This document shows, piece by piece, positions 21,426 through 26,126 of a stretch of 32,229 nucleotides of DNA (positions are counted from its first letter, which is position 1; each line of letters opens with the position of its first letter). This DNA comes from Lawsonibacter sp. GTDB taxonomy: Bacteria > Bacillota > Clostridia > Oscillospirales > Oscillospiraceae. The translations under genes and the position numbers were made by a program. The stretch is taken from assembly GCA_022794495.1 (NCBI GenBank), contig JAAWEX010000005.1, positions 1 through 32,229 of the forward strand, written 5' to 3'. The notes beneath the pieces are model-generated. The model was not told where the DNA came from. It saw nothing but the letters and a program-made list of their open reading frames with translations, and did not search any database.

Positions 21426-23912
21426 CTATCCCGCATATCCGTCGTCCACCTCGTTAAAGAAGCGCACGTCGATTACGGTGCCGATGGCGGCGGTATCCCC
21501 GCCGGCCACGCTTTGGCGCTCCGCCTTGGTGGTGTTGCTGTAGTAGGTGGACACGCCGGAGGCCCGCATGAAAAAGCCCTCCTTTTCCAGGGCGGTCCGG
21601 GCCGCCTCATAGGTCTTGCCGGTAACGTCGGGCACCGTCCCGCTCTCCTGGGGGACGGCGTCGCCCAGGTACAAAATCACGGTGGAGCCGCCAGGAACCT
21701 TGGTTCCCGAGGCGGGAATCTGCTGGGAGACCGCGTCTCCAGAGCCGATGGTGCGGCACTTCAGGTTTTTCTCCTTCAGCGCCTTCTCCGCCTCGCCGGC
21801 GGACAGGCCAGCCACCTTGGGCATAGACACGTCTGCCACGGCGGACTCGTCGCTGTTGAGGACCCGTTCCACCCCCATGTAGTCCAGGATCTGGGCGATG
21901 AGGGGGCCGGCCTTTCGGGCGGCCATATTGCCGCCGCTGATGTAGCGGCCGGTGGTGGATTCGTTGCTCCCCGGCGCCTTGGGCTGGGGCTTGTCATAGG
22001 CGATAAGGACGATGACCTGGGGGTCGTCGGCGGGGGCGTAGCCCATAAAGGAGACGATGGTCCGGTCCTCCTCGGTCTTCACCTCGGAGGAGCCCGTCTT
22101 GCCTCCGATGCGGTAGCCCGCCACATAGGCGTTTTTGCCCGTGCCCTTAGACACCACCTGCTCCAGGATGTCGGCCGCACGCTGGCTGGTCTGCTGGCTC
22201 ACCACCTGGCGGACCACCTCGGTCTGGGTGTTTTGGATGACCGTACCGTCCTTGGTGCTGATGGACTGGACCACGTAGGGCTTTACCAGGTTGCCTCCGT
22301 TGATCACGGCAGAAAAGCCGCAGATCATCTGGAGGGGGGTAACCTCGAAGCGCTGGCCGAAGGAGGCCACCGCCAGGTCCACGTTGCTCATCTTCTCCCG
22401 GCTCCACATGCCGCCGGCCAGGCTGGCCTCGCCAGGCAGGTCGATGCCGGTGCTCTCCAGCATCCCAAAGGCCTCGAAGTAGTCGTAAAATTTGTCCTTG
22501 CCCAGCCGGCTGCCGATCTCCATAAAGGCGGGGTTGCAGGAGTTGCCCACCGCCTCGGCCAGGGTCTGGCGGCCGTGGCCCGTCTTCTTCGAGCAGCTGA
22601 TGGGCTTGGGGTAGCCCGGAATGGTGACGGAGCCGGAGCAGTAAAAGGTGTCGTTCTCGTCCACCACCCCCTCCTCAAAGGCGGCGGCCAGCACCAGGGC
22701 CTTGAAGGTGGAGCCCGGCTCATACCGGGAATCGATGGCCCGGCTGCGCCACTGGGTGGTCCGGGCGTCGGAGACCGCCTGGCTTTCCGCCTTGGCCATC
22801 AGCTCACTGTCGGTGAGGTTCTCCGTGTTGTTGGCCTTCAGGCTCTGGAAGATGTCGGCTTTGTTCTGCTCCAGCTGGGAGTTGAGCAAATCGTTGGTGA
22901 TCTGGGCGTAGTTGTTGGGGTCGAAGTCCGGCGAGCTGGCGATGCCCAGGATGGCCCCGGTCTTGGGGTCCATGGCGATGCCGAAGGCGCCGTTGCGCAC
23001 GTCAAACTCCTGGATACCCTCCTCCAGGGCCTTTTCCAGGTAGGCCTGGATGGTGGTGTCGATGGTGAGGGTCAGGTTATAGCCGTCCTGGGCGTCGACA
23101 TACTCCGCGTAGGCGTTGTACCGCTCGGTGCCGCCGGCGGTGCGGGTGGTGTATACCCGGCCGGGGGTGCCCTCCAGCAGGTCGTTATACACTGCCTCGA
23201 TGCCATAGGCCCCCCCGTTGGCGTTGACAAAGCCCAGGGCCTGGGCGGCCAGCCCGGAGTAGGGGTAGTAGCGCTTGGTGCTGGTGATGAGATAGAGGTA
23301 AGAGGCCGTTTTATGCTCGGTGATGTACTCCTGAAAGACCTGCTTATCCTCCTCCTCGATATTCACCTTGACCTCCCAGTAGGCGGCCTTGGTGTTGTGG
23401 ACCTGTTTGACCACCTTTTCCCGGTCCAGGGTGGGGACCAGGGCCATCAGCTCCTCCACCATCTGGTCCTGCCGTGCGGCCACGTTGGCATCGTAGACGG
23501 CCTGGTCCAGCAGCTTCCCCTTCTCGTCCTTGTTCGGTACGCTCTTCACCAGGTCGATGGGGGAGAATATCAGCTTATACACCGTGGCCGACATGGCCAT
23601 CACCTTGTCGTTTCGGTCGTAGATGTTGCCCCGGCTGGCCGAGATGGAAAACTCTAAGGTCTGCTGCTTGGTGGCCATCTTCTGATACTCGTCATGGTGG
23701 ACAATGGCGATATCCCACAGCTTCCAAACCAGGGGAAAGAACATTGCCACGCCACACACCGCCATGAGGAACAGCGTTCTGTGGAGGATAGCCCGCTTGG
23801 AGTGGCTGCCCCGCGTGGCGTTGGTGGTCACGCTGCCCCGGCCCAAGCTTCTTTCATATTTACTGCTGTTTCTGATAGGAGGTCCCTCCTTCCTCGCTCC
23901 GTCTCCGAACAC
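21426..23912 (-). CDS. Class B penicillin-binding protein with two PASTA domains (SpoVD/FtsI type)
   Basis: Crosslinks septal or spore-cortex peptidoglycan. From the 5'-most start the protein has 828 residues: basic cytoplasmic head, one membrane helix (about 44-66), PBP dimerisation domain (SRGNIYDRN at 93-101), and the transpeptidase with STFK (Ser401), SCN (458-460) and KTGS (605-608). Two C-terminal PASTA repeats (about 685-745 and 752-825) follow. Class B plus PASTA right after ftsL fits pbpB (FtsI) or spoVD; only one such gene is in the cluster, so it may serve division. The start is unclear: GTG at 23910-23912 lies in a hairpin, while the only good ribosome site (GGAGG near 23881-23886) precedes no canonical in-frame start at normal spacing. 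TTG 23844-23846 and GTG 23829-23831 are further options. Confidence 0.93.
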   Translation of the reverse strand: MFGDGARKEGPPIRNSSKYERSLGRGSVTTNATRGSHSKRAILHRTLFLMAVCGVAMFFPLVWKLWDIAIVHHDEYQKMATKQQTLEFSISASRGNIYDRNDKVMAMSATVYKLIFSPIDLVKSVPNKDEKGKLLDQAVYDANVAARQDQMVEELMALVPTLDREKVVKQVHNTKAAYWEVKVNIEEEDKQVFQEYITEHKTASYLYLITSTKRYYPYSGLAAQALGFVNANGGAYGIEAVYNDLLEGTPGRVYTTRTAGGTERYNAYAEYVDAQDGYNLTLTIDTTIQAYLEKALEEGIQEFDVRNGAFGIAMDPKTGAILGIASSPDFDPNNYAQITNDLLNSQLEQNKADIFQSLKANNTENLTDSELMAKAESQAVSDARTTQWRSRAIDSRYEPGSTFKALVLAAAFEEGVVDENDTFYCSGSVTIPGYPKPISCSKKTGHGRQTLAEAVGNSCNPAFMEIGSRLGKDKFYDYFEAFGMLESTGIDLPGEASLAGGMWSREKMSNVDLAVASFGQRFEVTPLQMICGFSAVINGGNLVKPYVVQSISTKDGTVIQNTQTEVVRQVVSQQTSQRAADILEQVVSKGTGKNAYVAGYRIGGKTGSSEVKTEEDRTIVSFMGYAPADDPQVIVLIAYDKPQPKAPGSNESTTGRYISGGNMAARKAGPLIAQILDYMGVERVLNSDESAVADVSMPKVAGLSAGEAEKALKEKNLKCRTIGSGDAVSQQIPASGTKVPGGSTVILYLGDAVPQESGTVPDVTGKTYEAARTALEKEGFFMRASGVSTYYSNTTKAERQSVAGGDTAAIGTVIDVRFFNEVDDGYAG

Positions 23913-23946
23913 AAACAGCCCCGCTGTGCGGTGCTTGGTTTGTGTT
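23908..23946 (-). promoter_or_regulatory. Hairpin in the leader of the PBP gene, flanked by direct repeats
   Basis: AACACAAAC and GTTTGTGTT form a perfect nine-base-pair stem enclosing a second CCGC/GCGG stem. The hairpin is bracketed by two identical 12-base copies of TTCCTCGCTCCG (23890-23901 and 23945-23956). It lies just after the intrinsic terminator and covers the upstream GTG start candidate, so it could be an RNA control element or a small insertion. Confidence 0.55.
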
Positions 23947-23992
23947 CCTCGCTCCGGTCCAAGCTTCCCTGCTCGGGGATTCGGCGCTTCTT

Positions 23993-24028
23993 GAAAAAAG
24001 GGCGCAAGAAAACCTCTTTCTTGCGCCC
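23993..24028 (-). terminator. Intrinsic terminator between ftsL and the PBP gene
   Basis: A perfect 12-base-pair stem (24000-24011 with 24017-24028, GGGCGCAAGAAA/TTTCTTGCGCCC) with a five-base loop. On the minus strand it is followed at once by T6. It should stop or attenuate transcripts coming from mraZ-rsmH-ftsL. No clear promoter was seen between it and the PBP gene. Confidence 0.9.
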
Positions 24029-24102
24029 GAAATCTTTATATACCGGGTGAGTATGCGCACTTTACCCTAACCGGCCCCGCTCCGTTTCACTATATGGCAG
24101 GG

Positions 24103-24660
24103 TCAGCGGAAATATTCTATGATCCCATCCAATATGTCTCCTACGCCTTGCAGGATGCTTTTCAGCCCAGAGGCGCCCTCCCCCTGGAAAACGGTGACCG
24201 TGTCCGGGGCGGACAGGTCGATGTACACCACCTGTTCACTGGTGGGCCGAACCATGGTGTCTCCCACCGCCGCCTGGATGGTAGCCAGGTCGAACACCCT
24301 CTCATACTGGGCGGAGAGGACGGTGTTCTCCGCCTCAAGGCTGGTAAGCTGGCGGCGCAGCGACACCAGCTCGTCGTTGGCCACGGTAAGCTGGGCGTAG
24401 CTGGTTACCAGCAAAGCGGCAAAAACAGCCACGGCCAAAAAGCCTACCACCGCGAAGGGGGCGATGGCCCCCGCCTGCCGGACCTCTACCTGTGCCCGCT
24501 CGTGGCGGCGGACCGGTTTTTGGGGCTGGGGAGCCGGCGCGCGGCGCAGCTCCTCCTCTCTGCGGGGGACACGGGCTGCATTGCCGTCGTAGGTGGGCGC
24601 ATAGGCCACGCTGCCGTAGGTGCTGTATCCAGTTGTGCGCCGGCGGCGGTTTACAGCCAT
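24103..24660 (-). CDS. ftsL: FtsL-like cell-division protein
   Basis: Small bitopic divisome protein. The 185-residue sequence has a long basic/proline-containing cytoplasmic head (1-67), one membrane helix at about 68-89 (FAVVGFLAVAVFAALLVTSYA) and a heptad-like coiled coil (VANDELVSLRRQLTSLEAENTVLSAQYE, about 92-120; given here only as a landmark range). A variable tail of about 60 residues ends in amphipathic sequence. Position between rsmH and the class B PBP is the standard FtsL position and is the main basis for the name, since sequence conservation is poor. The ATG at 24658-24660 has AAGGAGA seven bases upstream and lies 11 bases after rsmH. An intrinsic terminator follows about 75 bases after the stop. 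Confidence 0.85.
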   Translation of the reverse strand: MAVNRRRRTTGYSTYGSVAYAPTYDGNAARVPRREEELRRAPAPQPQKPVRRHERAQVEVRQAGAIAPFAVVGFLAVAVFAALLVTSYAQLTVANDELVSLRRQLTSLEAENTVLSAQYERVFDLATIQAAVGDTMVRPTSEQVVYIDLSAPDTVTVFQGEGASGLKSILQGVGDILDGIIEYFR

Positions 24661-26097: not shown

Positions 26098-26126
26098 AGT
26101 ATAACCTCTGTTAACATAAAATGCAA
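26098..26126 (-). promoter_or_regulatory. mraZ (dcw) promoter
   Basis: TATACT (26098-26103) lies 17 bases after TTGCAT (26121-26126) on the minus strand. The predicted start near 26091 places the MraZ boxes at about +5 to +20, and the leader is about 65 bases. Confidence 0.65.

Follow-up and report, generated by a model that had tools for sequence, protein, structure and literature searches.

In Bacillus subtilis, sigma-E controls the cortex genes spoVD, spoVE and spoIVA (PMC517825), and in spore-forming Firmicutes the dcw-encoded SpoVD and SpoVE are believed to serve sporulation (PMC10693644). Termination efficiencies of 20.7-96.1% are on record for clostridial internal stem-loops that have few Us (PMC9045158). 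We analysed a 32,229-nucleotide stretch of a Lawsonibacter sp. contig (JAAWEX010000005.1; hereafter the window) that carries dcw genes on its minus strand (Table 1). The gap between its ftsL-like gene and its penicillin-binding protein (PBP) gene is made up of a sigma-E-type promoter, a conserved hairpin (hairpin 1) and an inserted copy of a dispersed repeat, the last two being unrelated and of separate origins. We consider it probable that these three layers act, respectively, as a sigma-E promoter, as a partial internal terminator and, in the case of the second hairpin, as nothing but part of a decaying repeat copy.

The PBP contains PBP dimer, transpeptidase and PASTA domains, and its gene adjoins murE in the dcw cluster. 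Among all NCBIfam models the best match was SpoVD (TIGR02214), at 515.7 bits, which is below the equivalog cut-off of 688; we therefore call the protein SpoVD-like. The ftsL-like protein matched no Pfam and no NCBIfam model, and the gene is named by its position. The start codon of the PBP gene (23876-23874, minus strand), placed by alignment, reads ATC in the window, where the close relatives G005 and G002 have ATG or GTG, and the ATC may be a base error of the metagenome-assembled genome (MAG). In-frame alternatives are a GTG at 23912, within the repeat, or a TTG downstream. The Shine-Dalgarno sequence (23890-23885) can pair with a CCTCCT just upstream (-6.3 kcal/mol).

Table 1. Features of the dcw cluster and of the ftsL-PBP gap in the window.
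Feature	Positions	Strand	Remarks
dcw genes: rsmH, ftsL-like, PBP with PASTA, murE, mraY, FtsW/SpoVE-like, murG		-	dcw genes in the window
Putative sigma-A promoter TTGCAT-17-TATACT	26098..26126	-	mraZ-rsmH-ftsL operon; read by eye
ftsL-like gene, 185 aa	24103..24660	-	named from its place after rsmH and before the PBP gene
-35 box of sigma-E-type promoter, GAATATT	24111..24117	-	within the final ftsL codons (..GAA TAT TTC CGC TGA)
-10 box of sigma-E-type promoter, CATATAGT	24089..24096	-	14 nt past the -35 box, immediately beyond the ftsL stop
Inverted repeat CCCTGC/GCGGGG	24075..24102	-	around the -10 box; covariation in 15 close relatives
Hairpin 1	24000..24028	-	conserved intercistronic hairpin; 12-bp stem, 5-nt loop, -19.9 kcal/mol
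T6 tract	23994..23999	-	directly 3' of hairpin 1; at least 6 U in 2/42 genomes
Dispersed repeat copy, 3'-degenerate	23888..23992	-	covariance model forced to 23853 at the degenerate 3' end
First 12-mer CGGAGCGAGGAA	23945..23956	-	internal loop of the repeat, 5' side
Hairpin 2	23907..23947	-	apical hairpin of the repeat; 10-bp arms 23947-23938/23916-23907 plus an inner stem
Second 12-mer CGGAGCGAGGAA	23890..23901	-	3' side of this loop; other copies mostly have CGGAGGGAAGG
SpoVD-like PBP gene (PBP dimer, transpeptidase, PASTA domains)	21426..23876	-	start register from alignment to relatives

The initial annotation had seen no promoter between the hairpins and the PBP gene, and had allowed for an undetected one used by another sigma factor. 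Indeed, the minus strand of the ftsL-PBP gap yielded no sigma-70-like promoter. A near-consensus sigma-E promoter, GAATATT-N14-CATATAGT, nevertheless occupies 24117-24089 of that strand, with the ATA-containing -35 box and the CATA-type -10 box, spaced by about 14-15 nt, that mark such promoters; it had been missed because of its position, 5' of hairpin 1 and partly within the end of ftsL. The suspicion of another sigma factor was thus right as to the type of boxes but not as to their place, which is before hairpin 1 and not between hairpin 1 and the PBP gene.

A scan with the strict pattern RNATATT-N14-CATAYANT gave a single match in the 1.95-Mb assembly of the window's own genome, at the ftsL end, and no match in 10 simulated genomes. 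Both boxes, spaced by 13-15 nt, were present at the ftsL end in all 63 readable genomes of the genus, although genomes in this and the other cross-genome counts are related by descent and hence not phylogenetically independent. The -35 box read GAATATT in 53 of the 63 and GCATATT in five, and nearly all relatives had CATATAGT or a variant of it 14 nt further on. Similar boxes stood upstream of spoIVA in 13/13 genomes of the genus, including CATATAGT and CATAGAGT variants, and upstream of spoIIIAA in 7/7. These controls were taken from sister species because neither gene was found in the window's own genome, a 70% complete MAG; sigE was found there (371.8 bits against a curated cut-off of 348.6). 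A looser pattern, applied to five genomes, matched spoIVA in G012, and the two other matches whose surroundings were read adjoin genes without an obvious link to sporulation. The sigma-E consensus of C. difficile is of a type similar to these boxes (PMC3789822).

As the -35 box lies in coding sequence and the encoded peptide is conserved, the boxes might be a by-product of a conserved FtsL C-terminus (..EYFR) and no promoter at all. We regard this as highly improbable, since rare codons are fixed within the box: its Glu codon was GAA in 55 of 55 cases, while GAA accounts for 17 of the 178 Glu codons (10%) in the window's dcw genes. In G010, G041 and G075 the variant GCATATT alters the amino acid and retains the DNA box. 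The -10 box and the spacing are conserved as well, although they fall outside the gene, and the near-identical boxes upstream of spoIVA and spoIIIAA also speak against a constraint on the peptide. We conclude that there is a strong case for a sigma-E-dependent promoter, with transcription predicted to start ~7 nt beyond the -10 box, around 24082. Such a promoter would drive mother-cell transcription of the SpoVD-like PBP gene in sporulation, and the transcript would probably extend over murE, mraY and the FtsW/SpoVE-like gene.

Hairpin 1 was confirmed as first described, a perfect 12-bp stem followed by T6 at 24028-23994 on the minus strand. The stem, GGGCGCAAGAAA/TTTCTTGCGCCC at 24028-24000, starts 75 nt past the ftsL stop codon, and its predicted stability (-19.9 kcal/mol) is that of the stable GC-rich stem-loop of an intrinsic terminator. 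A perfect 12-bp stem with at least six T in the next eight nucleotides occurs once on the real minus strand of the window, and arose in none of 200 first-order Markov simulations of it. The hairpin is also conserved. GGGCGCAAGAAA..TTTCTTGCGCCC or a near variant was present in the same gap in all of the first 19 relatives compared, down to 57% PBP identity, and hairpin 1 is kept at this site in most of 64 genomes of the genus, which includes nearly all of those outside one subclade. Across 25 diverse copies, 98% of the pair cells were kept, four pairs were double-changed and G-U was tolerated, as expected for an RNA hairpin. A generic genome-wide hairpin was excluded, the stem pattern being found once per genome.

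In the subclade in question (G001, G013, G019, G023, G058-G061, G066 and G072), another and longer hairpin takes the place of hairpin 1. At loci L111, L107, L108, L118, L110, L133, L114, L116, L103 and L112 this hairpin comprises 20 or more bp (CCTCTCTTGCTCC..GGAGCAAGAGAGG) and is mostly followed by CTTTTT.

The U-tract did not share the conservation of the stem. Among 42 genomes, at least six U within eight nucleotides after hairpin 1 were seen in the window and in G068 only; in G012 and G007, hairpins with at least six U are frequent at other sites. By the types described for clostridial stem-loops (PMC9045158), most orthologues of hairpin 1 would be of the partial, few-U kind and the window copy of the strong kind. 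The T6 tract makes hairpin 1 unusually strong-looking in its own genome. Vegetative read-through from the mraZ-rsmH-ftsL promoter would need to cross hairpin 1 to reach murE and the later genes, so that termination is expected to be partial. Partial read-through, which the initial annotation had proposed, accordingly stands as the plausible vegetative route past a conserved, terminator-shaped hairpin. We believe that hairpin 1 is most likely a partial internal terminator that may also give some protection to the mRNA end and set the output of the downstream genes.

A promoter 5' of a terminator is awkward, as sigma-E transcripts would likewise cross hairpin 1 and would be cut as well. A pure terminator reading is at its weakest here, which leaves room for a rival in which hairpin 1 is an mRNA-processing or stabilising hairpin, protecting the 3' end of the rsmH-ftsL message or shielding the 5' end of the transcript before the spoVD ribosome-binding site. 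The absence of the U-tract in most relatives indeed indicates that termination may not be the main role of hairpin 1. In relatives the hairpin usually ends 10-25 nt upstream of the Shine-Dalgarno sequence, and the constraint on its stem sequence exceeds what a terminator needs. We hold such a role to be possible but on the unlikely side, in view of the partial termination at clostridial stem-loops with short U-tracts (PMC9045158) and of the T6 tract in the window copy.

The initial annotation had also proposed that antitermination or attenuation governs passage through hairpin 1, in which case a ligand or protein would switch its fold in the leader. The leader is structured, and a further covarying inverted repeat, CCCTGC/GCGGGG, surrounds the -10 box: 10 double-changed cells were counted in close relatives, compared with 4.0 ± 1.5 in shuffles (reached in 0/500) and 1-6 in slid controls. 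In the subclade with the longer hairpin, the 5' arm could alternatively pair with an AAGGGGC block upstream. The folding of the window's own leader does not bear this proposal out, however. Hairpin 1 had a pairing probability of ~0.9-0.99 at nearly every leader length (falling to 0.45 at one length, for the weakest pair), and folding across the leader lengths tested gave no competing antiterminator in the window. Furthermore, no part of the window matched an Rfam family at gathering score; matches to the gap and to seven loci of the dispersed repeat, at E up to 5, were sub-threshold and at chance level. We therefore judge regulated attenuation unlikely. The inverted repeat can form solely in read-through RNA coming from ftsL, and a leader sensitive to the origin of the transcript could be imagined, in which this repeat alters hairpin 1 so that it stops vegetative transcripts and lets spore transcripts through. 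We give this version very little credence.

Hairpin 2 and the identical 12-base direct repeats flanking it were recovered as initially annotated (Table 1). They are not the second half of a structured leader. The two 12-mers are the two sides of the internal loop of a dispersed element whose full length is ~131 nt. By DNA search, 23992-23894 was matched elsewhere in 13 of 40 genomes, all within the genus, and a second, partial copy was found in the window's own genome (G000:C198:1-68). This copy (L002 1-68) ends at a contig border, which suggests that the repeat breaks short-read assemblies and that copy counts in MAGs are underestimates. Twenty aligned copies gave a consensus hairpin of 28 pairs, 16 of which covary by double changes, and when a covariance model was built with the window copy left out, that copy scored 78.7 bits (E 1e-13). 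Run on 64 genomes of the genus, the covariance model detected copies in at least 44, with up to 13 copies per genome; this is a lower bound, since only 53 candidates were scored per genome. Tandem copies joined by the 5' arm were seen at several loci (L045, G053), and the copy at L026 1501-1700 bears an extra hairpin-containing insert.

The places where the repeat occurs explain why we separate it from hairpin 1. Copies lie between dnaK and dnaJ, dapA and dapB, and relA and dtd (flanking genes named by eye from reading frames), and G009 and G019 each have one between the PBP gene and murE. Copies or remnants directly follow hairpin 1 in G000, G003, G053 and G068, and most relatives' ftsL-PBP gaps contain none. 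A comparison in relatives, which the initial annotation had suggested for both hairpins, thus found hairpin 1 conserved and hairpin 2 not; with hairpin 2 elsewhere in the dcw cluster, or absent from it, in relatives, a single two-hairpin leader was excluded. Could the repeat still serve the PBP operon as a functional, riboswitch-like leader or non-coding RNA? Beyond its covarying consensus pairs, copies often start at stop codons within operons: at 11 of 23 loci no more than 7 nt separated the start from the stop codon of a same-strand upstream gene, by crude ORF calling in a scan of 30 loci from which those at contig ends and mis-registered were dropped. We nevertheless find such a function scarcely credible, as the repeat follows hairpin 1 in so few genomes, adjoins unrelated genes elsewhere, belongs to no Rfam family and has a degenerate 3' arm in the window. 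A riboswitch or other known RNA family was excluded on the same absence of a match at gathering score, the relaxed threshold having given chance-level matches only. In the reading we prefer, a copy would have inserted just past hairpin 1 and would now be decaying, with no conserved role in the PBP operon.

REP/BIME and ERIC-type elements are intergenic palindromic repeats, and the present repeat is a new family of this familiar type, absent from Rfam. RAYT-mobilised REP was excluded as its identity: copy number does not track PF01797 (Y1), G042 having 13 copies and no PF01797 and G017 having five PF01797 and no copies. A literature search for such repeats in Flavonifractor and Oscillospiraceae found nothing relevant.

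These results place a dcw-encoded PBP of a group of gut spore-formers under a candidate sporulation promoter, half of which is coding sequence and which is therefore easily overlooked, and agree with the idea that the dcw SpoVD and SpoVE have turned into sporulation enzymes in Clostridia. They also caution that adjacent hairpins need not form one regulatory leader, one of the two here being a dispersed repeat. That family is undescribed in Rfam, covarying and genus-wide, with copies inside essential operons. The individual pieces are of known kinds; their combination deserves recording, as do the undescribed family of repeats and the promoter concealed in ftsL.

The promoter resembles those of B. 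subtilis spoVD and spoVE, which are likewise under sporulation sigma-E control inside the dcw cluster (PMC517825). It differs from them in that the 3' end of ftsL supplies its -35 box, that the cluster contains a single PBP and that the promoter has a conserved hairpin behind it. In having one dcw PBP/SEDS pair, this group of spore-formers recalls C. difficile, with its sporulation-specialised SpoVD and SpoVE (PMC10693644), although in this genus the pair may also serve outside sporulation. Hairpin 1 is like the partial terminators inside clostridial ABC-importer operons in being a GC-rich intercistronic stem-loop with a short or absent U-tract (PMC9045158). It differs in that it lies in a different operon and that its stem sequence is itself conserved. 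The repeat, finally, is like REP/BIME elements in being intergenic, palindromic, often placed right after stop codons, multi-copy and structured if transcribed (PMC3733652). Unlike these and ERIC, it is a multi-loop hairpin of ~131 nt in which no GTAG/CGTC tag was seen, and unlike REP its copy number is not linked to Y1 transposases; among the genomes searched it is confined to the genus.
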